Below, one piece after another: positions 302 through 53,500 of a stretch of 64,000 nt of DNA. Made by a program: the position numbers and the translations under genes. The stretch's first letter is position 1, and each line of letters starts with the position of its first letter. Where the stretch lies: NCBI GenBank assembly GCA_964036045.1, contig OZ038381.1, positions 143,539,596 to 143,603,595 on the forward strand, read 5' to 3'. Source of the DNA: Eutreptiella sp. 'Long Island Sound 2002' (lineage: Eukaryota > Euglenozoa > Euglenophyceae > Eutreptiales > Eutreptiaceae). The notes under the pieces are model-generated. The model saw nothing but the letters and a program-made list of their open reading frames with translations. It was not told the origin of the DNA and ran no database searches.

Positions 302-328
302 CCCTACGTGCTCATTTGGATCAGGTAC
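302..328 (+). repeat. Left terminal inverted repeat
   Basis: 27-bp perfect inverted match to 3117-3143; the next outer bases (301 and 3144) no longer pair, so the repeat edge is sharp. Confidence 0.85.
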
Positions 329-347
329 TTCACACAGTGGTTTTCCC

Positions 348-420
348 CGGTTTAACCCGGTTGAACTCGGAAGGGGCGTGGTTGAACCGCTGAACCGCGG
401 TTGAACCGCGGTTGAACCAC
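348..420. repeat. Left subterminal GGTTGAACC cluster
   Basis: Several overlapping copies of GGTTGAAC(C), including two joined as GGTTGAACCGCGGTTGAACC, lie just inside the left inverted repeat. Further copies occur at about 808-840, 1012-1036 and 1047-1060 within and near the intron. The dense palindromic arrangement fits binding sites for the element's own transposase. Confidence 0.6.
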
Positions 421-523
421 CGCCAGCGCTGGCGGCGGCGGCTGCGCCAGCGGCGCGCGCTTTTCTGAACAAAACATTTGCATAACCACCTGAAACTGAC
501 GCGTGACAAACCTTTTTTAAAAA

Positions 524-768
524 ATGTCCCACCACTGGCTGCAAGTGGTGAACGACCACTGCAGCGGTTGGGGGGACCAACAGCTGGTGGACGACTTGTT
601 CACCTTTTTTTGCACAAACCGCACGACAAAACGCCTATGGAAACAACTTGCTGACCGAATTGGTAACACACAGAGGGCTTCCAAACAGACAAAAAGGGCT
701 ACAAAAAAAGCTTTCACAGGATCCGACGCTGTGCGCCTCATTTTGGACCTTGGGATGCCGAAGCCAAG
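524..768 (+). CDS. Transposase-like gene, exon 1
   Basis: The frame opens at ATG 524 and runs 81 codons plus two bases to a strong splice donor, CCAAG|GTATGT. The product is basic and mostly helical (NRTTKRLWKQLADRIG, KQTKRATKKAFTG), as in a small DNA-binding N-terminus, but I recognise no named domain. Without splicing the frame hits TAA at 779. With the 769-1068 intron removed it reads on smoothly as GMPKPRYKKLISWADAKEKK. The real start could be further upstream; no better ATG was identified. Confidence 0.55.
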
Positions 769-1068
769 GTATGTGGCATAATGCACACATGCCTACAAGT
801 GGTTCAACGTGGTTCAACGGTGCGGTTGAACCCTTATCAGAAAAAGAACAATTGTGATTGTGCTTCATGACAAGGTTTGCACAGCAAGATGATGGCTTAA
901 TGTTGCCCAAAGCATGAACATATGAGTTGCAACGTGTTGCCCATGTCACAAATGTGAATACTTTGTGGTTTGTACCATTGGACGCTTTTTGGTGCCATGA
1001 CGGCAACGCATTCAACCGCAGGTTCAACGGCGCACTTTATCCCAATTTCTCGGTTCAACCGTCCCTAG
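769..1068 (+). other. Spliceosomal intron (GT-AG)
   Basis: The donor is AAG|GTATGT and the acceptor CCCTAG|GTAC. Removing these 300 bases joins an AG|G codon and keeps the frame open for about 80 more codons. The intron contains copies of the GGTTCAAC subterminal motif and an AT-rich body. Confidence 0.6.
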
Positions 1069-1802
1069 GTACAAGAAGCTTATTTCGTGGGCCGATGCCA
1101 AAGAGAAGAAAACCCGTGCAAGCACCGTCCCATGGACACATTGCTTTCCGTTGTATGCAACGATGGATAAAGCTTGGTCCACGTTAAGTGAGAGACAAGT
1201 ACTAAAAACGACCATAAAAGATGGAAGAGTCCGGGTTCGCTGGGATGTGGATGATTGGATACAATATATAGGTGATCAAAGGGATGTGCTAGAGGAAAAT
1301 TCACTTCCCAAGATTTAGGGATGATCAGCCCTATGTACTTATAGTGCGTGGTGATGGGTTTCCATGTGGAGCAAGGTCATGGTGCCAAATTGCATGTGGT
1401 TTTGCAAACCACATGCAAAAACCACGAACTTTGCTCTACAATTGGACCCTTGACCTTGCTCTCGTAAGTGAGCATGAAACGGATCTTGTGCGTGTCCCCT
1501 TGGGAGAGACACTAAAACAAATACAACAAATTATTGACCGTGCCTACATGTTGCTCCGAGGGTTTTGGGTGCGAACGGTTGTCATTATTTGAGGCGATAG
1601 CCCTTGGCTTTGTCATATACTTGGTCTATCCACATTTTATGAAAATGGGTCAATTTATTCTTTTGCGACATGGTCTAGGGAGAAAGAAAGATGGGTAGGG
1701 TGTGAATGGCGACGAAGTACAAGACTTGAAGCAAAATTCCTAAAGTATAGGAAACAAGGAGTTAGTTGTGTTGGTGCAAAAGGGTGCATCGAAAGTCCAC
1801 TA
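1069..1802 (+). pseudogene. Transposase-like core with GDG and GDxPW motifs, broken
   Basis: After splicing, the frame continues to TAG at 1316-1318 (…ENSLPKI). A one-base shift near 1310 gives a new frame with VLIVRGDGFPCG, then SWCQIACGF and LGETLKQIQQII, then an in-frame TGA at 1590-1592 followed by GDSPWLCHILGL and later GCIESPLL and RIGCVIMCVIHLVIRFGEYL. The spaced acidic GDG and GDxPW motifs are what I associate with a transposase-type RNase H-fold family seen next to mobile DNA in algae and fungi; the family name is not certain. The same frame runs directly into the dioxygenase domain. The frameshift and TGA indicate a pseudogene unless unseen splicing removes them. Confidence 0.5.
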
Positions 1803-2561
1803 TTGAAAGTGGATGACCGTATAGGGTGTGTCATCATGTGTGTTATTCATCTTGTGATACGATTCGGTGAATACTTAACAACGTTTGTGCGCACACGAGC
1901 CACAATGTTGACAGTACCAAAACGATCCAAGGTTCAAAGCCTCCTAAAGGCTGCTAAGACCAATGTTTCTTTGAAAGACTGGTCCTTCCCCGATCGGGAA
2001 GAGACATGGCACTTGTTTGCCAATTGGTTGCCCATTGCGCATGGACATGGAGCACGGTACCGTAGGCAGTTGCCGGGGGCCGTAATGGTGCAGGGGCATC
2101 ACCGTGTGCAAGTTGCAGCGCAAACAAGGAAATATCCGGACCTGGTCCGGCGCGTGAACGCACACATACGAAGAGTACTCCTCCAACTAACCTACACTGC
2201 GCTCGAAGTAATCCATGGGGTGGGCGATTATTCCATGCTTGTACATACGCATCCAAAGGATGACAGTCCCCTTACAGGGGAAATAGCCCTGGGTGATTTT
2301 GTGGGGGGGGAACTGTTTACCAGTGCCCTACTTTGTGCAAATGGGCCTTCTCGTCCTGCATGGATACGTTGGGGGCGTGATTTATTATGGGGACACATTG
2401 TGGATCCTCGATATGGGGTCATGTTTAACGCTCTTAGGCCCCACATGCCTCCGGCGTGGTCTGGACAGCGCATTGTGCTCGTACAGTACACAGGCATTGC
2501 ATGGGGACGTCTGCCTGTGCCGATGCAGAATGAACTGGTCACGTTTGGCTTCCCAAAGTGA
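1803..2561 (+). CDS. TET/JBP-like 2OG-Fe(II) dioxygenase domain protein
   Basis: Numbered from ATG 1803 (252 aa), residues 60-252 look like a TET/JBP domain. The signs are YSMLVHTHPKDD with the metal-ligand loop (H148), IALGDFVGGELF (160-172) in the conserved GGE strand, VMFNALRPHMPPAW with the second metal histidine (H214), and GQRIVLVQYT with the 2-oxoglutarate-binding arginine (R223). TET and JBP enzymes hydroxylate 5-methylcytosine or thymine in DNA. The usual HxD pair reads H148-T-H150, so the aspartate is replaced, by GAT to CAT if the ancestor was Asp. The ATG at 1803 may not be the true start: the frame is open back to TGA 1590 and reads as the C-terminal part of the transposase-like region, suggesting a fusion. 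Activity is doubtful given H150. Confidence 0.7.
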   Translation: MKVDDRIGCVIMCVIHLVIRFGEYLTTFVRTRATMLTVPKRSKVQSLLKAAKTNVSLKDWSFPDREETWHLFANWLPIAHGHGARYRRQLPGAVMVQGHHRVQVAAQTRKYPDLVRRVNAHIRRVLLQLTYTALEVIHGVGDYSMLVHTHPKDDSPLTGEIALGDFVGGELFTSALLCANGPSRPAWIRWGRDLLWGHIVDPRYGVMFNALRPHMPPAWSGQRIVLVQYTGIAWGRLPVPMQNELVTFGFPK

Positions 2562-3116
2562 AGATGTGTCTTTTGTGTAGCGCTTCGTGCAACAGCGGTT
2601 GAACCGGTGAAGCCGGTGCAACCGCCCGCCTGTCCAGCGGTTGAACCACCTCGAAAGCCGGTTACATTTTGGTGCAATCCATGAGGAAGCAAGCTTCTGA
2701 CAATCAAGTGTAGGCTTGCATGTAATTGTTGTTCACTAAAAAGGGTCCAAAGTCCTAAAGGGAATCCAAACAAGGCACAGGGGTGTATGTCACCACGCCT
2801 AACGAAAAGTTGATGGTGAAGCCGTGCGGTTTCACCAATACAGCCGCCGCCACTGGCACCAACACCACCACCGCCGTGAACTATGATCCAAGAGAAATAG
2901 GTCTCCAGTGTTTTGCACCAATGAGGTAAGAAGGTTTTCAAAACCATTCTTTTTAGGGGGTGTGGCATCTCTTGCAGGGCTGAAAAATAGCGGTTTTCAG
3001 GTTGCTACTTAGCAATTTGTTGCTGTACCACGATAGGGGTTCAACCGTGGGGAAGCCGTAATGAAAGTGCGCGGTTGAACTCGGTGGAACCACGGTTTCA
3101 CTTGGGTAATTCAAGG
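2562..3116. other. 3' non-coding part of the TIR transposon with subterminal repeats
   Basis: No convincing gene is visible on either strand. Copies of the GGTTGAACC motif lie at about 2593-2645 (twice CAGCGGTTGAACC) and at 3033-3105. The T-rich strand near 2940 and the direct repeats are otherwise featureless. Confidence 0.55.
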
Positions 3117-3143
3117 GTACCTGATCCAAATGAGCACGTAGGG
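3117..3143 (-). repeat. Right terminal inverted repeat
   Basis: Inverted perfect copy of 302-328. Read on the minus strand it happens to continue the pol frame for a few codons (LRAHLDQV), so the pol break is easy to miss in an ORF scan. Confidence 0.85.
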
Positions 3144-3347: not shown

Positions 3348-4478
3348 CTACTGCAGACTCTGATGGTCGGTGCAGACGTTGACGGGATAAAGGGCTATGT
3401 ACCCAGCCCATTTCCTGAGAGCCATGACAATGGCATACGCCTCCTTTTCTCGGGGCGTCCACGTCCGTCTCTGGCCTTCCGCCAGGACTCGGCTCCAGAA
3501 GGCCACGGGCACCCGCCTCCCATCGTCAAGCACTTGCTCCAACACAGCGCCTACAGCGTAGTCGGAAGCATCAGTGCGCAGGACGAACCCTCGGTCAGGA
3601 TCCATGAGGTGCAGACCCACTGCGGATAGCAGCGCCTGCTTCATCCCCTCGAAGGCACGATCGGACTCCTCATTCCAGACCAGAGCCTTCTTGGAACCCT
3701 TCTTGGTCTCCTCACGGTTTCCCTTGAGCATGGTCGTCATGGGGGCTGCATACTCGGCATACATCTTGATATACCCCGAGTAGTAGTTGCAGAACCCCAA
3801 GTACGCCCGTAGCTCAGAGATCGTTTTGGGCTTCTCCCAGTGCTCAATCGCAGCCACCTTGCCAGGTATGGGCTTCCGCCGCCCGTTCCCGACCACCTGG
3901 CCAGCAAAGACCACCTCGCTTACCGCAATGGTGGCCTTGTCACTGCTGCCCGTGAGCTTGTGCCGAACCAGGAGGTCCAGCACTCTGGTGACGTCCCTCT
4001 CATGTGCCTCCAGGAGCTCATCATAACCCATACTGGGGTCCCCGGACGCTATGATCACGTCGTCCACAAAGGGGTCTGCACAGTCAGGCACCGGCTCAAG
4101 AGGGTTCTCCAGCATCCGTTGAAAAGCCGCATTGCCGTTCGTAACGCCCATGGGCATCACCTTCCACTGCAGGGGTCCAAGTGGGGTGCTCATTGCTGTG
4201 CAGGCACGGGACTCCTCGGCGAGAGGCATCTGATGATAACCATGTTTCAGGTCAATCACCGTAAAGATCCTCCGCCGGTGTTGCTTTTGCAGCATGTCCT
4301 CAATGAGGGGCAGCATATAGCTGTCATGCTGCGTTTGGGCGTTTAGGCCGCGGTAGTCGACCACGAGCCGCCACTCTCCGGCCACCTTCTTGGGGACGAC
4401 GAAGCACGGGGAGGCCCATTCCGAGTGGCACGCCTCAAGCCAACCTCTCTTGATGAATTCACGGAGGATCTTCTCCAT
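3348..4478 (-). pseudogene. G1 Ty3/gypsy-like reverse transcriptase and RNase H
   Basis: A 376-codon open segment contains RT motifs in order: LVVDYRGLNAQT, VIDLKHGYHQMPL (catalytic D76), LQWKVMPMGVTNGNAAFQ, and PFVDDVI (137-140, the YxDD box as FVDD). The connection domain and RNase H follow, with RTDASDYAVGAVL (D303), KEAYAIV (E346) and TDHQSL (D371). This order is that of a Ty3/gypsy polymerase copying element RNA into DNA. All catalytic residues that can be seen are kept. The frame continues upstream without shift across TAG 4485-4487 and is stopped by TAG at 3348-3350, so the polyprotein is broken rather than separately started. The first Met is internal to the domain. Confidence 0.9.
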
Positions 4479-4484
4479 GGCCTC

Positions 4485-15635: not shown

Positions 15636-16658
15636 TCCCTCTTCAGGGAACTTGACCTCAACCCCAGCGGCCTGCAGGCACTTAGAGTGCCAATTTAGGC
15701 GGGGCTTCTTGGCGTTCGCGCAGCTCTTGTCCGCGCCACCAGCGCTGGGGGTGGAGGGGGCTGGCCGCTTTCTCCCGACGGCTCACCCTTGGGTGTGGTC
15801 TTGGGTGCTCCTCTTCCACCAGCAGGGGGGGGGGGCTGAGGACATTTGTCCTCCAGGGTTACCCTTACCCTTAAAGCCCGCAGGGTTAGGCCCCCCCCGT
15901 TCGGCTCCTCCGCCCTTACCGGCGGTCTTACGCCATTCCTCTTTCGCTTTCTCATGTTTTTCGGATTCGCGGCGTTTGATGTTGCATACATCTTCAGAAC
16001 GCCTCCTCTTGCCGCAATATCCGCACGTTATCGTACAGCCGAAATAGTCTTGGTGCTTTACCTCCTGACCATCTTTAGTTTTCTGTGTGCGCTTCAGCTG
16101 GAGCATGCACGCACTTCGCCCATCACAGTTGGGCTTGTGGCAGGGTTCACCCTTATCGTCCGAAAGACAACAGTAGAAAAGATTGGGGGCCCTTTTACCT
16201 TTGGAGGGGGCAGTCCCAGTCAAGTACTTCAACTGCCCACCACGGCCCTTCCCAGGGTTGGAGCGGGGTTGAGGCGACCTCCCTCCAAGGGACTTCTCAG
16301 CAGGGGCCTCCCTTCGCAGATGTTTGCGCAGATACTTGTCCATGTGGGAGTCATTCTCCCTCTCAATGGCCAATTCCATTAGCAGATCGACTAGGTCATC
16401 GTAAGAGTGTGTCCGAGTTTTCCTGTCGGACGTCTCTCTGCAGTTCTCCCATGTCTTGGTAGGAATCTTCCCCTCAAGCCACAGATGAGACTCAGTAGGC
16501 CCATAGGACTAGGGGTTCATGCGCCCCATGAGCTCTTCCGACTGCGCCACGAACTTGGAGATGCGCGCAGCTGTGGGGAATTCGGGAAGAGGAGGCAGCT
16601 CGTCAATCTCCGTCCGGACACTCAGGTCCATTTCATGAACTGGATACATTTGCTCCAG
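15636..16658 (-). pseudogene. G2 gag, C-terminal half with Cys-rich region
   Basis: On the minus strand the frame starts inside the target-site duplication (LEQMYPVHEMDLSVRTEIDE) and reads LPPLPEFPTAARISKFV, then TAG 16509-16511, then SYGPTESHLWLEGKI and LAIERENDSHMDKYLRKHL. A Cys-rich part follows (CCLSDDKGEPCHKPNCDG) and then CGYCGKRRRSEDVC. The last fits a C-x2-C-x4-H-x4-C zinc knuckle except that the His position is Arg. It continues exactly the gag that stops at 26868, which proves the two halves were one gene before LINE A inserted. I remember similar proteins from dinoflagellate genomes, unverified. Confidence 0.75.
16641..16658. repeat. Target-site duplication, left copy
   Basis: TGGATACATTTGCTCCAG matches 26868-26885 (TGGATACGTTTGCTCCAG) at 17 of 18 positions. 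It flanks LINE A. Confidence 0.85.
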
Positions 16659-18637
16659 TCTCCACCATCCGCGAGCATGTGCCCAGGGTCTTCAACTGGG
16701 AACAGCGGCGCGCCATCGAACACGACCCCTTCAGCATCTCAGAACTGCAACGCGCCCTGGACCGCCTGAAAAAGGGGGTTGTGCCCGGCGTCGAGGGTTT
16801 ACCGGCCGAAGCGTACCAACGCCTCACCCTGCCTGTCAAGCGCCGCCTGGCAGCCCGCCTGTGGGACGTCATCACGGGCACCACGCCCATCCCCCCTGAG
16901 TGGGCCAACCTGGTCCACCCCCTCTACAAGAAGGGGGACTGGGCGCAGCCAGGGGACTGGTGGCCCATAGTCTGCGCCACCACCGAGGTCAAGCTGGTGT
17001 GGACGCTCATCCTGGGCCGCATCGCACCGGCGGTCTTCGCCCACGTGCCCGCCAGCATGTGCGGAGCCATGGCGGGCAGGTCCCCCCAGGAGGCCATCTT
17101 CCTCCAGGACACCGCGCTGGACATGAACCCCTACGAGATGATCGTCGCCACCCTCGACGTCCAAGGCGCGTTCCCCCACGCCTCACACCGGCTCCTCACG
17201 GAGGTATGGGATGCCATGGGCCTCCCATTCCTATCCTTCATGAACGGGTACATCCAGACCCGGCTCTACGCCGTCATGACAGCGGCAGGCCTCATCCCCT
17301 GGACCGGCACAGACAGTGGGGTCCCCCAAGGTGGCGCTGAGGGCCCCTTCCTCTACCTCCTCGTCACCCTACCGCTGGCATTCGAGCTAGCACGGGTATA
17401 CCTGGGGTACGCCCCATACCCACTACGGTCCCCCCTCATCAACTTCGCTAACGACAACCTCCTAACTACGGCCACCCGCCACCGCGACCCTGAGAACGCA
17501 GGGCTACCCACGACCACCGAGCAAGCGTCCGCCATTCCCCAACTCACCACAACCTACCTGGACGCCCACCAGCTCCTGGTGCAAGCCCGGAAATCGGTCG
17601 GGCTAGCCGACACGGGGACCCCCACCCCCCACATCCGGAAAGGTGAACCCCTACACCTGGAGGACACCACAGTCCGCCTGGGAGTCACACAGGACACATG
17701 GCACCACCACATCACACTCCCAAGCAAGCTGGAAGGGCGCCTCGCCCGGCTACCCCACCTTGCCAGGAGGGACCTCCTGTCTACACAGGGCCTGGCATAC
17801 TTCATGGAAGCGGTGCTCAACGCAGCCGTCGGGTACCAAGCACTGCACCTCCCACACCCCCAAGACGCCCTACACCACGCCGTACAGCAAGTGACGAAGG
17901 CATTGGCGCAACACGGAGGCACGCCCAGGTCTTTCCCCAAGGAGGCCATGATGGCCCACTGGCGCTACTACGGGGACAATACAGGCGCCCTAGTCGACAT
18001 GGCCTATGCCAAACACGCAGCGCACCTCCTACACAGGGTGACACACAACCACCAACCCCAGGTTCGCGAGGCGGCAGCCATACGCATAAAAGAAGCGCAA
18101 ATGGTCCGCAACACCTGCCCCCGGTGGATACTGGCACAACACGGTGTCCCCACCTCTGTGGGCACCGGCATCTGGGCCCAGCTGCAACTTCTCTTAGTGC
18201 ACCACAAGCACGCCATCCTGACGAACTACCACTGCGATCAACAGGGGCCACCCGTGGCCACGCACACCGACATCCACCAACACCCGGCAGGCGAGGTGGA
18301 CACCCTGCGCCTCGTGGGAGCCACCATCACCATAGTATACATCACCCCAACGCAGATGAAGATCATGGCCCAGTACAACGCCCACCACGCCCTTTTCCTT
18401 TCCGACCCGCAATGGCCAGCACGCCGCGTCTTCCAAGCGTACCTCCGCGCATGCGCTACGAAGGCGTGGCGCGAAATGCCAGGGCCCAAGGACATCAACA
18501 CGGCGTACAAGGCTTTTCGGCGCCAGCACCCCCGACCCTGCCTGAGCGAGCACGAGGCCCCCAACGACGGCACACGACGCAGGAGGATCCCACCTCGTCA
18601 GCCGAAGGCTGGACACCACCCATCATCCTGCTACTAG
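16659..18637 (+). pseudogene. LINE A reverse transcriptase
   Basis: Open from the truncation point through Met 16679 to TAG 18635-18637. RT motifs are VHPLYKKGDWAQPGDW, IVATLDVQGAF (motif A, intact Asp), DSGVPQGGAEGPFLYLL (motif B) and LINFANDNLLT (motif C). Motif C in LINE C is FADD; here it is FAND (near 17443-17454), removing one of the two catalytic aspartates by a GAC-to-AAC step. The thumb region HLPHPQDALHHAVQQVTKAL matches LINE C. The true frame leaves this ORF near 18560 by a frameshift, so the last 25 codons are out of frame. Confidence 0.9.
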
Positions 18638-29497: not shown

Positions 29498-29825
29498 GTG
29501 CTGTACCGCCGTTTTTGCATTCGGGGGGACTGGCGCTCAGCGCAGCGCGCCAAATTTCTGCGCCGCATCAGCGCGCGCAGGTCCAACAGGCGGGGTAATC
29601 TCGGTGACGGTCTGCAGACTGCGGCCCTAGCAGACTGCGAAAGGGTGCGCACGAACAGGCGACGCGCGAATTTACGACAACCGAAAAAACGACTGGAATT
29701 GCTCTTCTGCTAAAAGGCTCAAATGGAACGCGTTTGTTTTGAACCGTTCTGCAGCCCAAATTTATAAAATAGTTGCATTATTTTATCGCCAGATAAAGGT
29801 AAGATACCTTTCTGGTAACGACGCT

Positions 29826-31697
29826 ACTCATTTTCAACTCCCTCCTACTCAATTTCAACTCCCTCTTGCTCATTTTCAAGTCCCTCCAAGTGAAAATACA
29901 CTCCCTCCTACTCAATTTCAACTCCCTCCTACTGATTTTCAAGTCCCTCCTTATCAATTTCAACCCCCTCCTACTCAATTTCAACTCCCTCCTACTCAAT
30001 TTCAACTCCCTCCTACTCAATTTCAACTCCCTCCTGCTCATTTTTAACTCCCTCCAAGTGAACATGTACTCCCTCCTACTCAATTTCAACTCCCTCCTAC
30101 TCAATTTCAACTCCCAGCTGCTCATTTTCAACTCCCTCCAAGTGAAAATCCACTCCCTCCTACTCAATTTCAACTCCCTCCTACTCATTTTCAACTCCCT
30201 CCTACTAATTTTCAACTCCATCCTACTCAATTTCAACTCACTCCTACTCAATTTCAACTCCCTCCTACTCGATTTCAACTCCTTCCTACTCAATTTCAAC
30301 TCCCTCCTACTCATTTTCAAGTCCCTCCTACTCAATTTCAACTCCCTCCTACTCAATTCCAACTCCCTACTACTGAATTTCATCTCATTCCTACTCGATC
30401 TCAACTCGCTCCTGCTCATTTTCAACTCTCTCCAAGTCAACATCCACTCCCTCCTACTCAATTTCAACTCCCTCGTACTCATTTTCAACTCCCTCCTACT
30501 CATTTTCAACTCCCTCCTACTCATTTTCAACTCCCTCCTACTCAATTTCAACTCCCTCCTACTCAATTTCAACTCCCTCCTGCTCATTTTCAACTCCCTC
30601 CAAGTGAAAATCCACTCCCTCCTACTCAATTTCAACTCCCTCCTACTCATTTTCAACTCCCTCCAACTAATTTTCAACTCCCTCCTACTCGATTTCAACT
30701 CCCTCCTGCTCAATTTCAACTCCCTCCTAGTCGATTTCAACTCCTTCCTACTCATTTTCAACTCCCTCCTACTCAGTTTCAACTCCCTCCAAGTGAAAAT
30801 CCACTCCCTCCTACTCAATTTCAACTCCCTCCTACTCAATTTCAACTCCCTCCTACTCATTTTCAACTCCCTTCTACTCAATTTCAACTCCCTCCTACTC
30901 AATTTCAACTCCCTCCTACTCAATTTCAACTCCCTCCTACTCATTTGCAACTCCCTCCTACTCTATTCCAACCCCCTCCTGCTCATTTTCAACTCCCTCC
31001 TACTCGATTTCAACTCCCTCCTACTCAATTTCAACTCCCTCCTACTCAATTTCAACTCCCTCCAAGTGAAAATCCACTCCCTCCTACTCAATTTCAACTC
31101 ACTCCTACTCAATTTGAACTCCCTCCTACTCATTTTCAACTCCCTCCTACTCGATTTCAACTCCCTCCTATTCAATTTGAACTCCCTCCTACTCATTTTC
31201 AACTCCCTCCTACTCGATTTCAACTCCCTCCTACTCAATTTCACCTCCCTCCAAGTGAAAATCCACTCCCTCCTACTAAATTTCAACTCCCTCCTACTCA
31301 ATTTGAACTCCCTCCTACTCATTTTCAACTCCCTCCTACTCAATTTCAACTCCCTCCTACTCAATTTCAACTCCCTCCTACTCAATTTCCCCTCCCTCCT
31401 ACTCAATTTCAACTCCCTCCTACTCAATTTCAACTCCCTCCTACTCAATTTCAACTCCGTCCTACTCAATTTCAACTCCCTCCTACTCAATTTCAACTCC
31501 CTCTTACTCAACTTCAACTCTCTCCTGCTCATTTTCAACTCCCTCCAAGTGAAAATCCACTCCCTCCTACTCAATTTCAACTCCCTCCTACTCATCTTCA
31601 ACCCCCTCCTAGTCAAAATCCACTCCCTCCCACTCATTTTCAACTCCCGCCAAGTGAAAATGCACTGCCTCCTACTCAATTTCAACTCCCTCCGACT
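29826..31697. repeat. 21-bp minisatellite array 1
   Basis: Roughly 89 copies of CTACTCAATTTCAACTCCCTC with point variants. A second 21-bp variant containing CAAGTGAAAATCCACTCC recurs every few units. Because 21 is a multiple of 3 and the unit lacks stops in several frames, long open frames run through it on both strands (for example repeated RRELKLS on the minus strand, LLLNFNS on the plus strand). Confidence 0.95.
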
Positions 31698-31730
31698 CAC
31701 AAAGACCAGCACAATAACGATGAGGCATTG

Positions 31731-31842
31731 TTATAACTTCCAAAAGTCTGGGTCCTCCTCAGCCGAGTCATACTCTTCGTAACCTTCAACAACCCCATCA
31801 TATTCAACCATATTGTGAACGTGTGCATGCAAATGATCAACC
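31731..31842 (-). pseudogene. MULE C-terminal fragment next to array 1
   Basis: The minus strand reads VDHLHAHVHNMVEYDGVV and EGYEEYDSAEEDPDFWKL, ending at TAA 31731-31733. The same acidic peptide, with four or five differences, ends the MULE gene at 40515-40675 and recurs near 39600. Its position immediately before the array shows that array 1 is the downstream part of another MULE copy. Confidence 0.6.
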
Positions 31843-33014
31843 GTGCTGTACCGCCGTTTTTGCATTTGGGGGGACCGGCGCGCGCAAGTCCAACAGGCGG
31901 GGTAATCTCGGTGACGGTATGCGGACTGCGGCCCTAGCAGACTGCGACAGACTGCGCACGAACTGGCGACGCGCGCATTTACGACAACCGAAAAAACCAC
32001 CGCAATTGATCTTCTGCTAAAAGGCTCAAATGGAACGCGGTTGTTTTGAACCTTTCTGCAGCCCGAATTTATGAAATAGTTGCATTATTTCATCGCCAGA
32101 TAAAGGATCGATAACTTACTGGTAACGAGGCTACTTATTTTCAACTCCCTCCTACTCAATTTAAACTCCCTCTTGCTCATTATCAAGTCACTCCAAGTGA
32201 AAATTCACTCCCTCCTACTCGACTTCAACTTCCTCCTACTCATCTTCAAGTCCCTCCTACTCAATTTCAACTCCCTCCTACTCAATTTCAACTCCCTCCT
32301 ACTCAATTTCAACTCCCTCCTACTCAATTTCAACTCCGTCCTGCTCATTTTCAACTCCCTCCAAGTGAACATCCACTCCCTCCTACTCAATTTCAACTCC
32401 CTCCTACTCATTTTCAACTCCCTCCTACTCAATTTCAACCTCCTCCTACTCATTTTCAACTCCCTCCTACTCAATTTCAACTCCCTCCTACTCAATTTCA
32501 ACTCCCTCCTGGTCGATTTTCCACTCCCTCCAAGTGAAAATCCACTCCCTCCTACTCAATTTCAACTCCCTCCTACTCATTTTCAACTCCCTCCTACTAA
32601 TTTTCAACTCCCTCCTACTCAATTTTCACTCCCTCCTACTCAATTTCAACTCCCTCCTACTCGATTTCAACTCCTTCCTACTCAATTTGAACTCCCTCCT
32701 ACTCATTTTCAAGTCCCTCCTACTCAATTTCAACTCCCTCCTACTCAATTTCAACTCCCTCCTAACCATTTTGATCTCCCCCGTGCTCATTTTCAACTCC
32801 CTCCAAGTGAAACTCCACTCCCTCCTACTCAATTTCAACTCCCTCCTACTCATTTTCAACTCCCTCCTACTAAATTTTAACTCCCTTCTACTCAATTTAA
32901 ACTCTCTCCTACTCAATTTCAACTGCCTCCTACTCGATTTCAACTCTTTCCTACTCATTTTCAACTCCCTCCTACTCAATTTCAACTCCCTCCTACTCAG
33001 TTTCAACTCCCTCC
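31843..33014. repeat. Flank-plus-minisatellite unit, copy 2 (array 2 from about 32131)
   Basis: The flank at 31843-32130 is the second copy of 29498-29825. The array of about 42 units follows and ends sharply at CTCCCTCC near 33014, where LINE-like element B begins. The array resumes at 38970, so it was one array before the insertion. Confidence 0.8.
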
Positions 33015-33130
33015 GTGCTGCGTTGCTGCTTGCGCGCGCGCTGGCGTCCTGTGCCAGAACGAAATAAAAAGATAAGTAAAACACGACGAAAAAAGTTTCT
33101 AAATAGCTGAAAATAAAGATAATTAGCATT

Positions 33131-33740: not shown

Positions 33741-33839
33741 TTTCGCTGCAGGTGTCAAGAGGTTTCAAGAGGCGTGCGGATCACTGGAGCAGCAAGGCCA
33801 AGAAATAAAGAAGTCAACCAGGCTGGTTTTTTTAGTCTG

Positions 33840-35800
33840 TGGTTATGTTGCATACAGGGAGGGCAGGGAGCACACGGCACGACACCACAGGACACAGCAC
33901 GTGTAGGCAGGAAACAGTTTTTCTATTTTTGAAAATGCACGGAGGTAACCGCGCACACAGCGCGACGCCACAGGGCACCAGCAGCGCAACGGACAGCAGC
34001 AAAAAACAGCACGGACCACAACACAGCGGCAAAACACACACAGCACAGCGCACACAGCACAGGGCAGCACAGCAAAGCGCCACACCAAACGGCACAGCAC
34101 CCAACAGCACGGCACAACACCCGAGGGCAGGGCACAGCACGCAACAGCACCAAAAAGCGCAAGAAAAACCAGCACAGCACCACGCAAGCAGCACAGTGCG
34201 CAACAGCACTGCACCACACGAAACAACACGACGCAACGCAGCGCGGCACGGCACCGAGAGACACAGCACAACACACAGGAACACAGACCCCAACAAAACA
34301 GCCAGACACAACACAAACAGCACAGCACAGCGCATCAAGACACCACACCCCAAGTCACAGCACAAAACACAGCGGCACAGCACAGCACAGCACAGCACGC
34401 AGCAAAGCACACAGCACCCGAGGCACCGCACAGCACCCGAGGGCACGCCACGGCACCACACACCGCGAGACAACGCAGCGCAGCACCACCCCCACAGCAC
34501 AGTGCACAACAGCACAGCAGCACACAGCACAACACGACGCGACACGGCCCAGCACAGCACCAGGGGGCACAGCACAGCACACAGCACCGCGACCAGGACG
34601 AAACAGCAAGCCACAACGAGGACGGCAAAGCGCAGCGCAACCAGACACCACGCCCAACGGCGCAGCACAGCACACAGCAGCAAACGACAGCGCAGCACGG
34701 CACAGCACAGCACGGCACACAGCCAACAGTACAACGCCAACGGAGACCAGACGGCACAAAGCACACCACAACAGCACAAAGCGGGACAGCACAGCACAGA
34801 GCACCAAGACGCAGCACCCCAGCGAACGCCGCAAGGCACGACAACACAGCACAGCGCCACCGAGCACGGCAGAGCACGCGGCAGGGCGCAGCCGCACGAG
34901 GAAACGCAGCGCAGCACCACGACACCCGCGAAGCACAACAAGACACGGCACAACACGACACAGCACACCGCACCCCGAACAACACAACACAGCAAGCAGC
35001 AACACAGGACCGCAAAGCACAGAACAAGGCAGCACAGCGCGCCAACACCAGCCAGCACAAGGCAACAGCAGGAGGACCCCAAGGCACAAAACCGGGGGGG
35101 GGGCGACGGCCCAACAGCGCACGAGAAGGCAGAAGGAGAACAGAGGAAGGCAAGCGGCAGGGCGACAACACCCGCGAAACACAAACACGGAGGAAGGGGG
35201 GGTGACTGGGGTGAGCAGGAGGCGCCAACGAACAGCCAAGCGGCGCAGAGCAACCACACGGCAAAGAGAGGAAGGAGAGGACCAAGGATAACGCGGACAA
35301 AGACGCCAACGGCCGGAAAAGCCCAGGGGAGGGGGGGGGGGGGGGGCAACAGCCGGCGGCGGGCGCCGCGACACCACGCGGCAAAGGGGGGGCGGAAGAC
35401 AGCAAGCGGAGGAGTGGGGTGGGGTAGGAGGGGGGGCGCAGCAGAAGGCGGCGCCAAACAGCAAAGCGAGGCACGGAGCCGCGCAGACACAAGAAAGCGG
35501 AGGGCGAGCGGGGGAACACGAGCGGCAGGGCGACGACACCCGCGAAACAAAAACACGGGGTGGCGCACCACACGCGCTCGGGAGGCCGGCCCGTCCGTCC
35601 CGGCCAGGACAAAGGGGTGGGGCACCACACGCGCTCGGGAGGCCGGCCCGTCCGTCCCGGCCAGGCAAACACAACAGACACCCAACACCCAACAACGCCG
35701 GCCATAAGGTGGCGGAGACAACAACAAACCAACAAAACAAGCCGAGCAACGAGTCGGCTGAAACACCACGCACGAAAACCCAAACACACCGACACAGCAC
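33840..35800. other. T-depleted low-complexity tract
   Basis: The plus strand is almost free of T for long stretches (many 60-base lines between 34000 and 35100 hold one to three T) and is built of CAGCACA/CAACACA-type words. Because stop codons need T (or A opposite T), every frame on both strands stays open. The 600-900-codon open frames here are artefacts. The tract 35090-35700 is G-rich, with a G14 run near 35331. Confidence 0.85.
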
Positions 35801-37625
35801 GCCCCACCATGGGGTGGGCCACACACCACCACAACACGGCCCGCCAAGAGGAGGGCCACACACCAACCCAACGCGCCCCACCATACGGGGGGCCACACAC
35901 CACCACACACAACACAATACACCGCACACCGACGCAGCACGCCCCACCAAGAGGGGGGCCACACACCAAGGCAGCACGCCCCACCGTGAGGGGGGCCACG
36001 CACCACCACCAGACACAACACGAAGCCAGGCAACACAACACACCGCACCCCAAAGCAGCACGCCCCACCATGAGGGGGCACCACACACCAACGCAGCACG
36101 CCCCACCACACGGGGGACGACACAGCACAACGACGCACAAATCCAAACAACACAATACACCGCACCCCAACGCAGCACGCCCACCATGCAGGGGGCCACA
36201 CACCAACGCAGCACGCCCCACCATGAGGGGGGCCACGCACCACCACCACACACAACACAAAGCCAGGCAACAAAACACACCGCACCCCAACGCACCACGC
36301 CCCACCAAGAGGGGGGCCACACACCGGCGCAGCATGCCCCACCACGAGGGGGGCCACACAACACGACACAACACAGCACACCGCACCGCGACGCGTCACA
36401 ACAAAACACAACGCAACACAGCCCCACCATGCGGGGGCCACACACCAGCACCACACACAGCACACCGCACCGCAACGCCACGTAAAACAACGCAACGCAG
36501 CACAGCCCTACCACGAGGGGGGCCACACACCAACGCAGCACGCCCCGGCATATGGGGGGCCACACACCACCACACACAACACAACACCACACAAAACAAC
36601 ACACCGCACCCCGACGCAGCACGCCCAACCAAGAGGGGGGCGATGCACCACTGCAGCACGCCCCACCATACGAGGGTCACACACCACAACGACACACAAC
36701 GCCACACGGCACAACCCACGGCACCCCAACGCAACACACCCCACCATGAGGGGGGCCACACACGACCACCAGACCACACAACGCCACACAACACAACACA
36801 ACACAGCGCAACGCAACGCGACACAACACATCACACCACGTGCCACCATGAGGGGAGCCACACACCAACGCAGCCATTCCCACCATAAGGGGGCCACACA
36901 CCACCCCACACACGACGCCACACAACACACCACACCGCATCCCAACACAGCACGCCCCACCGTACGGGGGGCCACACACCAACGCAGCACGCCCCACCAT
37001 GAGGGGGGCCACAAACCACCACCACACCACACAACGCACCACAACACAATACAACACACCGCAATGCGCCGCGACACAGCACAACAGAACATAGCCCCAC
37101 CATGTGGGGGGCCACACACCACCACACCACGCCCCACCATGAGGGGGACCACACACCACCACAACACAAAACGCCGAACAACACAACACACCGCACCCCA
37201 ACGCGGCACGCCCTACCATGCCCGGGGCCACACACCAACGCAACACACCCCACCATGAGGGGAGCCACAGACCACCACACCACACAACGCAACGCAACAC
37301 AAGACAACATACCACAATGCAGCACGACACAACACAACACACCACAGCCCCAACATGAGGGGGTTCACACACCGGCGCCCCACGCCCCAGCCGGAAGGGG
37401 CCACGCGCCACTGCGCCAAGCCGCAGAAGCCAGAGAACGACACACAACCACGCCAAGCCCCACCAAGAGGGGGGCGAAACACAACCACGGCATGCCCCAC
37501 CATGCGGGGGGGCCACAAAGCACCACACCACGCCCCACCATGAGGGGCCCCACACACCACTACACCACGCCCCAACATGAGGGGGGCCACACACCACCAC
37601 AACACGCCCGACCATGGGGGGGGGC
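35801..37625 (+). repeat. Hairpin-motif array, about 31 copies
   Basis: The motif GCCCCACCATGAGGGGGGC, with variants in the middle, recurs at about 35801, 35839, 35875, 35941, 35978, 36062, 36100, 36179, 36214 and so on to 37606. Spacing mostly alternates between 35-38 and 66-103 bp. GCCCC and GGGGC can pair to a 5-bp stem. The sequences between copies are variable, T-poor and low in complexity. It is not a CRISPR: spacing is irregular and the host is eukaryotic. Confidence 0.85.
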
Positions 37626-37848
37626 ATACACCACCAGAACAACCGCAACGGACCGCCCCTGGCCCCACACACCCGCCAGCAGGACAAACCGGCCACCAGG
37701 CAGTGCACACGATGCACGGCAACATGCCAGCCACGACAAGACCTAGACAACGACGACTCGCGCGGGCCTTCACACGAAGGACCCCATCGAGTTCAGGACG
37801 CGACAGCGCTGGCAGCAGCAGAAAAGACCCAACGACGAACAAGCTGAC

Positions 37849-41470: not shown

Positions 41471-42724
41471 CTATATTTTTGCCTTGATTTGTTGCACACG
41501 TTTGGAGATCGCACAGAATCTCGGTAGGTCTACCAACTCCGTCTCAAGTGAATCGTGACACTGTCGATCATAGTTCCATAAGGGTGCCGCCCTGTTGGCA
41601 TCTATATATTGGGGCCCCTTGGACACGTCATACTCATACACGAGGTACGCAGATGAAGCATTCATCTGCTGGAGCATTCTATCAAACGCCCAGCTTGTCA
41701 CCTTGCCTGAAACGAACTTGACATATAATGGGAAGGCTTGGTCAGCTGTTTGGTGATTGGCGTGTCGGTGATTCACCATTTCAGTATATTCAAGTTTATA
41801 GCCCTCCTTGGAGAGCAAGTGCAAAACAGATAAAAAAATGTGGTGGTAACCTTTTCTTGCACTCAGTTGGCGCTTTATGCGGCAATTCAAAGACTCAGCC
41901 CTCTGTGTTGACTTGCCGCCGAAGGTAAAAACTTCTACGTGCCATGCAACACACCAACTGTCAAGACGATATAGGGGGGATCTGACTCCAAGGTAGTCCT
42001 TGACAGTTTTCCCGCGGGGGTCCTCCAGAACTTTGGGCCAGAGAATATCAGCACCGTCCTTATGTGGGCACTCCTGAACCTGTCGGATGGCGCTCTCAAG
42101 AGCAGTGAAATAGTGTTGCTCGAGGGAGTTTCGGCAGTTTTCGGTAAGATTTTTGTAAATGTGAAAAAGGCAGAGGAAGTGAGCAGTTTGGTCCGGGGGG
42201 AAAACCCTGGGAACGGACCCCAACAGGGCGTATGCAGCATCACTGAACAAAACCCGGGGGGCACAACCGGTTGCCTTTATCCACTCCTGCCAGAGCCACT
42301 CATAATCCTCTGCATTTTCACTGCTTGGCAGGCAGCCCTGAGCCAGGAGAAGGGCTTGGCCATGATCGTTGATACCGCAAAACAGGGACAATGCCTCACC
42401 GTACCGATTTGATTTATACGTGTTAACTTGAAAAATGACTTGTGCATATTTTCTGGCGTTTTTTACTTGCTCTGGCGTCATAAAAAACCATCTTCGTACA
42501 ACACCAGTGACTGGGTCAGGGGCTTCATGATTGAAATACCAGGCAGGATCTGCCTGTTTGAGCAATTTCAGGTGGTTAATCAAATGTGCAAGATGATTTG
42601 GGCCCATCTTGCGTTCGATGGACTTGAAAAAATTTCTGATGTGCTTGGTTGAATACCCTTTGATTGCTGGGTACGCGTCCTCGCTATATTTCTTCCTCAA
42701 ATTTACAAGAATTTGATCCGGCAT
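41471..42724 (-). pseudogene. MULE/FAR1-type transposase catalytic domain
   Basis: The 417-codon segment has the MULE layout: AQVIFQVNTYKSNRYGEALS where the first DDE aspartate normally lies, CGINDHGQALLLAQGCL, YEWLWQEW, APRVLFSDAAYALLG (second Asp), FLCLFHIYKNL and TQRAESLNCRIKRQL (Glu). In most relatives the first site reads DxTYKTN; here it is VNTYKSN, so the first Asp looks lost (GAT to GTT would suffice). The transposase would cut and move its element. It is in frame with the N-terminal segment across TAA 42737-42739 and is frameshifted at its end. Confidence 0.85.
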
Positions 42725-42736
42725 TTCACGGTGCTC

Positions 42737-47990: not shown

Positions 47991-50535
47991 CAGTCCCCGG
48001 GGCTGCACTATGTGGTGGGCATGGGGGAAGGGTTGGGGGCCGGGCTTGACGGTGACGATGGTTGAGGGGTCCCACGTCCCTGGGTCGGTTTGGCCGGCGG
48101 TGGTGGTGGTTTGTGGGGGATGGATGATGGGGCGCTTGGTGACGGGGATGTGGACGAGGGCCTGGACGGGGTCGTGCTGGGTGGCCGTCTCCGCGGTGGT
48201 GGTGGGTGCCGGCGGGAGGGGGGCGCGGGTCGTGGTGGGTGGGGGGTCCTGGCTTGGGCGAGGGCCCGGGCGGGGGTGGTATCGGGTGGTTTTGTGTCGT
48301 TGCGTATGCGGTGTTGGGTTTGAGGTTGGGGTCCGGTTTGGGTTTGGGGTCGGGTTTGGGGTTGGAGTCTGGTTCCAGGTTGAGGAGTACCTCTGTCCGG
48401 AGGTGTGAGGGCGTCGATGCCGGGTCGGGGGTCGTCCCGGTGGGTTGCCGGGGTGCCTGAGTCGCCTGTGTGGGGGTTGGGGGGTCGGTGCGTGCGGCCG
48501 CGGCTTTGGCTTTCGCCGTGGCCTTGAGGATGAGTTTGGCGGGGAGGGGGGGGTCGGAGGATGAGGTGGAGGAGGTGGACGAGGCTGAGGATGAGGAGGA
48601 GGTGGTGGACGCGGGTTGGGCTGTGATGCGGGCGGGCTTGCGAGCGGCGGCTTCTGCTGCGGCCACGGCAGGGAGGATGGAGGGCATGTCCCCGGGTTGT
48701 AGGTTGGGGGCGGGCGGCTGGGGGGGCCCGATCGTGACCTGGCGGCCCGGCGGGCCGATCTGGTCGGCTGCGGCGGGGGAGGGAGGCGCGGGGCTGCGGC
48801 CTTCTCTTTCTGGGCTCGGCTGGGCCCGGGTCCTGCAATGTGCGAGGTCGTGTGGGTTGGTGTCCGCGGGGGGGAACAGTTCGCGTGGGCTGCATTCAGG
48901 GGCCGGGGGGGGTGGGCCTGGGTCCTCTGGGGTGTGTGTGGGGGGCGTGGGCGGGCCACTGGGTGGGGTGGGCGTGCCGCGGGGCGCGGGGCTCCCCTTG
49001 GCGGGTGTGTGTGGGTTGTCGAGTGTGGGGGGCGGTGAAGGGTGGCCGGTGGGTGGGTGTGTGGCGGGCGTGTGCTGGTGTCCGGGCGGGTGGGGGAGGC
49101 CCGTGTCGCGGGGCCCGGGGGTGCGCGCGATAGTGGGCGTGCGTGGGTCTCTGGTTGTGCAGCGAGAGGGGGGGGGCATGGGCGGGGATTGTGCGGGGGG
49201 GGGTGCTGTGCCGGTGTATGTGTCCGCTTGCTGCGCGCTTGCGTGGGCAGTTGTAGGCCGGGCGGTTTGGAGGAGAAGCTTGCCGTCTTCTGCTGCCGCG
49301 GCAAGGATTTCGCAGACGAGCGTTCGTATCTGGTGGACCTCTTGGTCAGTGGTGGGAAGGGGGCATGCTAGCTTTGGGCTAAGACCCGCGCGGTTGAGGA
49401 CCCTGTGGATGGCGTGGTACCCGCAGGGGAGGGACTGCTGCGGCCTGGGGGGGGGGTTTGGTCGTGTGTCCGGGCCTGCTTCGACTTGTGTGTGGGCGGT
49501 GGGGATGGCCCAAACCCAGGGCACGGTCCCCGTGGGTGGCCAGTGGCGCTGGATCCAGTGGGTTAGGCAGAGCATGGCCAATCCCAGGTGGTAGCCCGCC
49601 TTCCCTGAGGTGATTTGGGCCAGGGCGCGGGCTGGGGGCGTGTCTCCTGGCTGGAGGACACCCCTGAGGATCCTGTGCTGGGTGGTGGGGTCCCCCACCG
49701 CCCCTGGTGGGGCGGTCTCCGGGGCGAACATGGTGTCTCTCCCCTGGATGATCCATTGCGGGCCGTGGGACGTAGCCGTAGCGGCTATCACGTAGTAGTG
49801 GCCGCGCTCGAGGACTGTAACCCAGACCTCCGGCGGGGGGTGGTCACTGTCTGTAAGTGGGGGGGGGAGGTCGTCGTCCGGGGTGCGGAGGCCGGCGGCG
49901 CGGAGGGCGGTGTCGCGGTTGGGCGCGGTGGCCTGTTCCCACTGCTCCGGGTGGTTCGGGTCCGCTGGGTGGTCCGTCTCCGCTTGGGCCCGCCGTAGGC
50001 GTACGGTCCCTCGACACGTGACGTTGCTGCCGGTGTCGTGCGTCAGGGCCTGGCCCCACTCGATGGGGGGGATCCAGATGGGCTGGCCCCGGGTGTGTTT
50101 GCGGGCTCGCCAGAGCACGAGGTCTACTATGGTCTCGTGGAGGCCGCTGCCTGGGGTGGTCAGGTCCCGGAGGGCTTTGACGGTGAGCTTGGTCCAGCCC
50201 TCTTGTAGGCGGTACCAGCCCAGGGGGGTGGTCGGGGCCCTGTCTTGGAGGGTCGCTCGGAGGAGGTCGGGGTCGCGGATGGTGGCCGGTGTGAGGGGGG
50301 GGTGCCCCGGGTCCGGGGGGGGTGGGCTGGATGGGCTGCCGGGGTCTTGCGCGTCTACGTCGATGGATGGTTGGCCCTGGCTGGGCTCGGCCGGACTCGG
50401 CGGTGCCGGGTGGCTTCTTGGGTGCGAGACGGGTCTCGGGGCGCTGTGGTGGTGCCTTGGAGACCTGTGGATGGAGACGAGGGGCGCGTGCGGGGCGCGG
50501 AGCGGGTTAGTGGACGTCTGGGTCATGCACGGCAT
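47991..50535 (-). CDS. LINE C ORF3, Ulp1-like cysteine peptidase signature and linker
   Basis: Starts at ATG 50535, overlapping the ORF2 stop by 29 bases in another frame. Residues 80-180 hold a conserved block (LLRATLQDRAPTTPLGWYRL, QPIWIPPIEWGQALTHD) shared with LINE A. Residues 238-270 read WVTVLERGHYYVIAA and WIIQGRDTMF (His246, Asp267), and 366-378 read QQSLPCGYHAIHR (Gln366, Cys371). That is the His-Asp-Gln-Cys order of Ulp1/C48 peptidases, though the Asp-to-Cys gap is longer than usual. Beyond residue 400 the sequence is Pro-rich and probably disordered. A better frame appears from about 49000 to 48000 (NPPPPQGGPENPQGLHGPYP), so frames change at least twice. Confidence 0.5.
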
Positions 50536-53500
50536 GGTAATGGATGAGACGCTGCATGTGTTCCCTGGCGGTGGGGTCGGTGAGTTGTTCCGCGTGTGGT
50601 AACAGGAGGTGTTTGCGGTGTACCATTTTGGCCGCTGCTCTGCGGACCGCTTCTAGCTGGAGGTGTGCTGCTGCCTCCATGGGGCTTTCCGTGTGTTTGG
50701 TGAGGTGTCGGTGCAGGGCCTGTGTCACTGCCCCTCTCATGGTGGCTTCTTTGATCAGGGGGTCCCGGAAGAGGTGTTCGGTGGCCTGGTGTGCGTGGCT
50801 GTGGGCTGGCCATCCTTCGTGTTGTCGCAGGGTTTCCGCCGGGGACCAGCCCACTAGGGTGTCCCTGTCTGTATGGAGGGGGCATTTCTTGAAGTGTTCC
50901 CAGTCCTCCGGGGTGGTGTGGTCGCATGGGCAACGGGTGTGTTCGTCGGGGACGTGGATGTGCTTGCGGGCGAGCCATCTGGCGACCCTGGTGAGGAAAG
51001 GCAGTTGCTCCCTGAGGAGCTGGATGCGTCGTTTCTGGAGGTGGGCTGGGACGTTTGCTGGGCGGAGCGCTGAGTGGTAGAGGGGGACTTGCAGTCTGTC
51101 CTGGAGCTCCTGGATGTGCGCCCGGCTGTCTGCGTCGCCGAGCACGCGGGCGAGATGTTGGACGGGGTTGGGGTAGTGGTACGCTCTGTCGTGGGAGGAA
51201 TAGGGGGCGTCCTCTGGTACCCAGTCCGGGGTCTGATGGGGCTCGGGTACAGGGGGCACGTGTTGGAGGTGTGTGTGGTTGCGGCCGAGGTCAGGGATCT
51301 GGAGGGCTGGTAGGTGTGTTGTGCGCTGGTGTACTGCCTGGTTGTCGACCTTATCATTTCCGTATTGGTGCCTGTGGGACTCTTGTTTCACGATGTGGAT
51401 TTGGACGTAGGGGGGAAGGCTGCGTAGGGCTTTCCAGAGTAGCAGTGCCTGGGTGCCGAGGCTCGTCGCGGTTGCTTTGTGAAGTGGTTGCCTTGCTATG
51501 CGGAGGAGCAGGTGCGTGTCGACAGTGGCGTCTACCACGAACCAGACCCGGACGATGTGCGGGGAGTGGGCGGGTAGGTGGGCCGCGACTTCGGTGATGG
51601 CGTCGGCCATGGCCCCTAGCTCCCCGTGGGAAGAGGCCCCATAGGTGGTGTGGCCCGTGTGGTGGTCCATGTGGTAGTGTCCCCCGGTGTGGGTTAGCTG
51701 CAGGGTGGCCCCCCCGGTGATGGGCGTGAGGGCGGATTCGCCTGAGGCGTCGGTGAAGAAGAGCCGGTCCGCCGGTGATGGTTGTGGGAGGCGGCATGGG
51801 TTCATGGGCAGGTAGGCGTATATGGCAAGGCCCGTGGCGAGGTGGGCTACTGGGGTTGTGGGCTGTAGGATGGGGGTGGCGTACACCCCTATTCCTTTGG
51901 AGATGATGTGCTTCGCTTGGGGGGACAGGGCTATGAGTCCCTGCTCCGGCTGTCCTTGTGTGAGGTAGGAGTAGATGTAGTGGAGGATGTAGGCTGTGTC
52001 GGGGTTTAGGTCGTGGCATGTGAGGGTTTGTGTTCGGTGCTCCGGTGTGTGGCAGGAGTGGTGGAGTGGATAGTAGGGGTGCTCGTGCTTGCCTGTTCTG
52101 CCTGGCTCGTACATGCTGTAACGGATGGCGACCCCTGCCGGGTCGGGGCGGGGGCATGTGGGTGTAGTGGTGAAGAGCCATTTGGGCGCGTGGTCGGGGT
52201 TCCATGCTACCGTGGGGTTAGTGTCGGTGCGATGGAACCATGGGGCTATCCATGCGTAGGCCTGTGGTGGTAGGTGGGTCGTGGGGTGGGTGTGGTGGCG
52301 TGCTATGAGGTGTAGTACGGGCCATGGTGTGGTTGGTGCCTCGGGGTCACAGGCCCAACATGTGCGTGGCATGCTCTGGGAATCTTGGGGGACCTTTGGT
52401 AGGTCTCGGGCGGTCATGTGGTGTTTCGGTATGCGCCATTTTGCCCCGTGGTGGATGACGGTGGTCTGCGTGGGTTTGGCTTCATTCGGGGCCAGTAGCA
52501 GGGTTAGTGGTGGGACTGGGCCCGTTACTGGGGGGACGGGTTCGTGTTTCGATCCGGTGGGTGCGTAGGGCGGTGTCGCTGGGATGGGTCGCGGGTGTTG
52601 CTTTGTGAATTCTCGGTAGGCTGTGCGCATGTCATTGCTGCCCGGTAGAGTGTGTCCCGCTGCTCGTGCCGTCTGTGTGAGGTACTGGTGGAAGAGGCGG
52701 TATTGTGGCCATTCGGGAAGCTGTAGAAAGGGGGTGTGGTGTGCCCCGCTGTGGTGCAGGACTCGCATTTGGGGGAGGGTGACGTATACTACGGTGATGG
52801 AGGCCCCGACAAGGTCTATGGTGTGGATGGTGCCCTTGGGGTGGTGGTGGAGGTCCCCGCAGAGGACCGCTAGTGGCCCTTTCTCTGGGCACGTGTGGTT
52901 GGTGAGTATGGCGTGGTGTGGGGATGGGAGCAGAAGCTGCAGGTGGTTCCACAGGCGCGTGTTCATGTTGGTGGGCATGCCCGTCTGGTGGAGTACCCAG
53001 CGCGGGCATGTGTTGCGGGCCCGTTGTGCGGCTTGGAGGCGGATGGCGGTGACCTCGCGGACCTCCGGTGAGTGGTTGTGGGTCATGCGGTGAAGGAGGA
53101 GGGCGGTGTGTCTGGTGTAGGCCGCTTTCACCTCGTCCCCTATGGCGTCTCCATAGCGGAGCCATGCCGCTCGGATGGCGCGGGTGGGTATGGAGGTGGG
53201 CCAGCCCCCGTGTGCTGCCCATGCCTTGGTCACGGCGCGTGTGGCCGGCTGGAGGGCGGTGGTGGGGTGTGTTAGGTGGAGTGCTTGGAAGCCTATTGAG
53301 GCGTTCAAGACCCCGGTGTGGTAGTACGCCAGGCTCTGGTGGGACAGGGAGAGGGCCTTGGTGGTCGGGGACGCATATCTGGGGAGATGGGCGAGGTGTG
53401 ACTGCAACTTGGGAGGGAGGGTGGCGTCTTCAGGGTTGGTTGCCTGGACTACCCCCAGGTGGGTGGTGGTCGTCACGACTTGCATGGGGGGCCCTTGTGG

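Follow-up and report, generated by a model that had tools for sequence, protein, structure and literature searches.

A dead copy of a high-copy DNA transposon with predicted RAG1/Transib-like relatives and a passenger frame bearing TET/JBP-like motifs

Does a transposon of Eutreptiella sp. 'Long Island Sound 2002' carry an enzyme that oxidizes the bases of its own DNA? The question arises from a 64,000-nucleotide stretch of contig OZ038381.1 (assembly GCA_964036045.1, positions 143,539,596 to 143,603,595, forward strand), referred to here as the window. Near its start lies an element with terminal inverted repeats (TIRs) that a preliminary description, made from the sequence alone, took to be a transposon carrying a TET/JBP-type DNA dioxygenase. 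As described below, we are confident that the element in the window is a dead and deleted member of a cut-and-paste transposon family present in many copies, whose long members encode a transposase with a predicted RAG1/Transib-like core. The passenger open reading frame (ORF) in question, termed ORF3, most likely encodes an element protein of unproven kind.

A deleted copy of an abundant family

The element occupies positions 302-3143 (2,842 bp) between 27-bp perfect TIRs (302-328 and 3117-3143), as the preliminary description had it. The first 24 bases of the TIR have a chance expectation of 0.00 matches in the window. How common, then, is the family? A search of the whole genome (2,280,300,865 bases in 2,205 contigs, the window being on contig C4) for exactly these 24 bases found 377 + 402 occurrences, or 779 ends, against 0 + 0 for the control. 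Genome matches to the element number at least 44: the window copy, 39 others, three pieces from the 5' side, and a single diverged one (76%); counts from this match list, in which 40 of 1,321 candidates were scored, are lower bounds. Other copies bearing the supposed domain, which the preliminary description had proposed to look for, do exist: the 3' 1.1 kb, comprising the TET-like part and the right end, recurs at at least 39 other places with 96 to 97% identity, and the TET-like frame therefore belongs to the element. The claim of a TIR transposon with a TET/JBP dioxygenase thus stands in its first half; for the second, TET/JBP is a candidate assignment of the frame.

Fifteen stretches were fetched, and 11 had both ends, which together with the window copy gives 12 paired copies of 1,770 to 6,323 bp. 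Six are 5.9 to 6.3 kb long and mutually 96.8 to 98.9% alike, while L034, L035, L037, L041, and L043 are further shortened copies. In 10 of the 12, the same 2 bp stand immediately outside both TIRs (GT, AA, AA, TT, AT, TG, TA, TA, AT, and TA), from which it follows that insertion by this family duplicates 2 bp of target without a fixed sequence; identity over 3 bp is seen in 0 of 12. The exceptions are L044 (AG and CA, with a damaged end) and the window copy, which has TA next to one TIR and CA next to the other and hence retains no identical target duplication. An initial reading of the window by itself, in which only TA is duplicated and the target is a palindromic CCCTAGGG, was discarded, as the other copies have any 2 bp beyond a whole CCC..GGG TIR. 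A resemblance between the TIR and the spliced leader of dinoflagellates was also dropped, with 622 of 20,000 shuffles equally good; matches to the leader with up to four mismatches numbered 0 in 180,214 bases, too little sequence for a judgement.

What has become of the copy in the window? Its features, and those of the retroelement around it, are as follows.

302..328, plus strand: left TIR, 27 bp, perfect inverted repeat
337..420, no strand assigned: left GGTTGAAC repeat cluster, with more copies at 801-838, 1021-1060, 2597-2647, and 3038-3080
524..768, plus strand: transposase gene exon 1, an open frame from ATG 524; its homologue is spliced to give a 556-amino-acid frame in L039, L046, and L047
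769..1068, plus strand: GT-AG intron, 300 bp, donor AAG/GTATGT and acceptor CTAG/GTACAAG (slash at the splice site), with identical sites in L039, L046, and L047
1069..2038, plus strand: transposase remnant matching profile A3, with a frame shift near 1300 and a TGA at 1590-1592, ending before the catalytic Glu
2039..2042, plus strand: 4-bp filler at the deletion junction, from comparison with the long copy L039
2043..2561, plus strand: TET/JBP-like frame with its stop (ORF3 minus its first codons), with HTHPKDD, LGDFVGGEL, RPH, and GQRIVLV; TET/JBP-like by motifs only
3117..3143, minus strand: right TIR, 27 bp, perfect inverted repeat
3351..4484, minus strand: gypsy-like reverse transcriptase and RNase H of the interrupted host element, outside the transposon (Pfam RVT_1, RT_RNaseH, and RT_RNaseH_2)

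In the long copies (about 6.3 kb), the transposase, ORF2, and ORF3 are separate genes in that order. The ORF2 protein, which lies in several pieces, is charged and has some stretches rich in lysine and others that are acidic. ORF3 starts from its own ATG, with a TGA lying before it in L040, L046, and L047; it is 180 residues long in L046 (MRGWQWRE...FGFPR) and contains an internal stop in L039. In the window copy, a deletion joins 2038 to 2043. The missing segment, about 3.43 kb corresponding to 1736-5162 of L039, took the 3' end of the transposase, including the catalytic Glu, and fused the remainder to the TET-like frame; filler at such a join is the pattern left by end joining. Upstream, exon 1 and the intron lead into the same gene as the frame at 1293-2561, which is shifted near 1300 relative to the continuous frames of L039, L046, and L047 and is then interrupted by the in-frame TGA, with ORF 1593-2558 being the open part downstream. 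The window copy is therefore dead, nonautonomous, and internally deleted. Met 1803, from which the domain had been counted, is part of the transposase remnant (before about 2038).

Could the fused frame nevertheless be a working protein, part transposase and part TET-like? Fusions of transposase pieces with the TET-like part also occur in the database ORFs P0001, P0012, P0040, and P0063. However, the joins differ among them and each is a one-member cluster, and the databases hold open frames only, which biases them toward in-frame joins. Given also that the genes are separate in the long copies and that the window frame has both a TGA and a frameshift, we give such a fusion almost no credence. 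The protein searches as a whole returned 48, 22, and 50 matches, or 96 different proteins, all of them nameless 'ena' source entries and all 96 matching the element. Two, P0003 and P0095, extend into sequence that is 84% and 82% identical, respectively, to repeats elsewhere in the window, and both must therefore come from the same or a very near genome; for P0003, the comparison is with window 33832-37800 (84% of 64 residues in common).

The GGTTGAAC repeats number 10 in the element and 2 in the remaining window, both strands counted. Three long copies have 16 to 18 each, clustered near both ends, with none inside the gene 1 exons or ORF3, and the repeats are candidate binding sites.

The transposase

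What kind of enzyme moved the family? Spliced, gene 1 encodes 556 residues and is free of stops in all three copies translated (L039, L046, and L047). Transposase profile A3 matches three window ORFs with 103.2, 171.4, and 223.8 bits, the matching part lying before about 2038. The residues of a DDE triad, D134, D215, and E446 as numbered in the relative P0021, are conserved, and P0021 is predicted to have an RNase H-like core with a helical insert, resembling RAG1 and Transib. With the P0021 model as the query, ranks 1 to 9 of 311 in Foldseek are all Transib or RAG1, and rows 1 to 35 of 50 in the VIA list are all RAG1, RAG-like, or Transib; no family beyond RAG/Transib is prominent in that list, though absence from it excludes nothing. 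The pLDDT (model confidence) of P0021 is only 52, so the RAG1/Transib-like core must be held with caution. Between the second D and the E, neither C(2)C nor H(3-4)H, the motifs of the CMCT group, is conserved, each being found in 1 of the 8 sequences compared (a ninth, P0046, is a deletion form). In the transposase stretch of 10 recent copies, there are 25 synonymous, 53 nonsynonymous, and 3 stop changes, a per-site ratio of 0.66.

These anatomical features best support the following account of how the family may have spread. A RAG/Transib-type DDE transposase would act on the TIRs, with insertion yielding the 2-bp duplications. Short copies such as that in the window would arise when the gap at an excision site is not properly repaired, and they would be mobilized in trans.

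ORF3 and the rest of the window

Is ORF3 a dioxygenase? The motifs on which this idea was founded (IALGDFVGGELF, RPH, and GQRIVLVQYT) are indeed present, all of them in ORF 1593-2558. ORF3 is laid out as H-x-H-x-x-D, LGDFVGGEL, and then PH..SGQRIVLVxY, for which the counterparts in Naegleria TET are HKDNLD, GNF, H, and SGWRIGLVYF. A search pattern for this arrangement accepted E or H as well as D as the last residue of HxD and had thus been loosened to fit ORF3, so the counts that it gives flatter the frame: it matches Naegleria TET, joined TET2 pieces, and, among 98,478 amino acids of window translations, only ORF3, and chance yields it in 6 of 200,000 shuffles. Pattern stretches from viral and prokaryotic collections encode a relative in 0 of 18, 7, and 63 cases, and a made-up TET-like string gave 0 of 20. 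As in TET/JBP proteins, the window copy and P0049 have the distal His and the Arg that binds 2-oxoglutarate (2OG), as H-x(8)-RIVLVxY. The metal motif is HxH, whereas HxD or HxE would be expected of TET/JBP.

These observations bear on the reading that ORF3 is an active TET/JBP dioxygenase with which the element would oxidize its own 5-methylcytosine or thymine bases, thereby evading silencing or marking its ends. Besides the Naegleria-like order of motifs and the rarity of the loosened pattern, it draws on the conservation of H78 and D82 in all 20 aligned copies and of H76 in 18, on a database cluster of 236 members for the 180-amino-acid ORF (P0049), and on a fungal precedent in Kojima 2025 (PMC12730594). 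Set against it are the HxH in place of HxD/E, the looser retention of the distal His (17 of 20) and the 2OG-binding Arg (14 of 20), and the profile and constraint results that follow.

The preliminary description had itself named a TET/JBP profile search as the refuting test, and ORF3 has no match in Pfam, no oxygenase match in a PDB profile search (three chance matches, E values of 0.85 to 1.1), and no TET/JBP match by hhalign. The silence of Pfam says little because its Tet_JBP profile gives even the proven Naegleria TET an E value of only 0.1. A control profile of demonstrated power is more telling. It was made from 10 phage TET/JBP proteins around gene 2 of Mycobacterium phage Hangman (Pfam Tet_JBP, E value of 5.5e-6) and detects Naegleria TET with 18.9 bits (hhalign, 92% local and 84% global), but it scores the ORF3 domain at 1.3 bits at best (hhalign, 0.0 to 0.3%), which is noise; 85 of 200 column-shuffled versions equal the score of the ORF3 domain. 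The AlphaFold model of ORF3 has a pLDDT of 35, too low for use, and Foldseek gave 0 of 69 matches at an E value of ≤0.001. Comparing ORF3 pairwise to known TETs was given up as a test because two proven TETs fail it too (for Naegleria TET versus TET2, 510 of 2,000 shuffles are as good). In Kojima's paper (PMC12730594), the PE-type fungal proteins had HHpred E values of 1.4 and 19 before structures tied them to TET; having scored poorly too, they leave room for a dioxygenase reading of ORF3.

A search of the whole genome with PF12851 (Tet_JBP) gave one match, which is not ORF3. It is a 523-amino-acid ORF at 664-2235 (minus strand) of L048, on the small contig C2034, with 74.7 bits; a TET/JBP domain (HKDKGD and H..RIS) is followed by what, by reading, appears to be a glycosyltransferase. 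This ORF is possibly viral or a contaminant.

Has selection maintained ORF3? Among 15 indel-free sequences of 16 distinct recent copies, with changes counted from the commonest base, there are 14 synonymous, 49 nonsynonymous, and 3 stop changes. The per-site ratio of 1.24 indicates no purifying selection, and the recent copies therefore drift. An older relative, L049, has an ORF3 that is 80% alike, with a ratio of nonsynonymous to synonymous change (dN/dS) of 0.68 and with a stop and indels; it retains HTHPK and WSGQRI, along with part of ORF2 at 73%. ORF3 may, on faint signs, have been under constraint in older times. The ORF2 and ORF3 pieces of L049 (441-1044 and 3609-4529) adjoin the long copy L047, and L049 1-100 is 100 bp of the right end of L047, an arrangement suggesting either that elements inserted here more than once or that their decay was nested.

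With the window copy broken and the recent copies showing no constraint on ORF3, self-demethylation and end marking, as first envisaged, are speculation, and we consider active oxidation by ORF3 improbable. Alternatively, ORF3 could be an element protein other than an oxygenase, such as a DNA-binding protein or a transposition helper, with its motif likeness due to chance. Every profile test was negative, the metal motif is noncanonical, and the search pattern had been loosened to suit ORF3. Yet several TET-like features co-occur in the right order and spacing, and they survive in the older relative. This second reading is plausible while falling short of probable. As to the role of ORF3, we rank another element function, or a lost one, first and a dioxygenase second; perhaps ORF3 is a far-diverged 2OG/Fe dioxygenase that formerly aided the element against silencing.

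The boldest proposal would be a new group of the RAG1/Transib fold, with CCC..GGG termini and 2-bp duplications, whose highly diverged three-histidine (HxH...H) dioxygenase of the TET/JBP type, acquired independently of those in fungi, rewrites bases in the group's own copies within a very large eukaryotic genome full of repeats. We regard this as a long shot. If ORF3 did prove to be a dioxygenase, a RAG-like element would be armed with base oxidation by an enzyme whose metal site is unusual, and the chemistry of a TET-like site built from three histidines would be novel. Among the open-licence PMC papers listed, no title or abstract reports a DNA transposon outside fungi with a TET/JBP gene.

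The gypsy-like pol on the minus strand, which the preliminary description had correctly named as the insertion site, flanks the element (Pfam RVT_1, 3.6e-22; RT_RNaseH_2, 1.7e-25; RT_RNaseH also matched), and, by our reading of the sequence and the ORF list, its frame resumes on the far side. This pol may resemble elements of dinoflagellates; the idea in the preliminary description of a thymine hydroxylase in a dinoflagellate host with hydroxymethyluracil is conjecture. The ratio of observed to expected CpG in the window, 0.72, is a mild depletion with little information on methylation. Elsewhere in the window are a MULE transposase domain of another DNA transposon type (41474-42736, minus strand; Pfam E value of 2.1e-15), G+C-rich nongypsy reverse transcriptase ORFs at 16532-18634 (plus strand) and 50510-55855 (minus strand), the second open for 1,782 codons, and long tandem-repeat-like stretches at 29803-33067 and 33832-37800 with several open frames on both strands.

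Comparison with known systems

Which known transposons does the family resemble? The KDZ elements (Kyakuja, Dileera, and Zisupton), to which it had at first been likened, carry TET/JBP genes in fungi, as the element here carries a TET/JBP-like passenger in ORF3. It is not of the KDZ kind, given its 2-bp target duplications: those of KDZ are 7 to 8 bp (PMC12730594), and 0 of 12 copies here share even 3 bp. Pfam found no KDZ domain.

With Naegleria TET1 (4lt5 and 5cg8) and the phage TET/JBP proteins, ORF3 shares the order and rough spacing of the metal-site, GxF, and H...RI-x-x-V-x-Y motifs. It differs from them in having HxH rather than HxD and in lacking profile similarity.

The predicted fold of P0021, a DDE domain in which a long helical insert precedes the Glu, is like that of Transib and RAG1 (6pqx, 6pqn, 6dbw, and 6cim). 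Identity in the fold alignments is 8 to 14%, in contrast, and the zinc motifs are absent. Transib makes a 5-bp target duplication, unlike the 2 bp seen here. Even without a dioxygenase, a high-copy family with the RAG/Transib fold, open transposase frames, and 2-bp duplications would be an added branch of the group that is the source of V(D)J recombination.

The fungal CMCT transposons ESTA, EnSpm, and PlavakaB carry TET, according to Kojima 2025 (PMC12730594). The termini here are CCC..GGG rather than CA..TG, the duplications are any 2 bp where ESTA has TA only, conservation of the CMCT motifs C(2)C and H(3-4)H is lacking, and ORF3, with its HxH, is missed by TET/JBP profiles. The host, too, looks unlike the fungi treated there. 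Shared with the TET-carrying fungal CMCT elements of that source, however, are TIRs, a RAG1/Transib-related DDE transposase (here by predicted fold), and a TET/JBP passenger (here TET/JBP-like), and the 2-bp duplications fit the 2 to 5 bp of the CMCT group (CACTA, Mirage, Chapaev, Transib, Plavaka, and ESTA).

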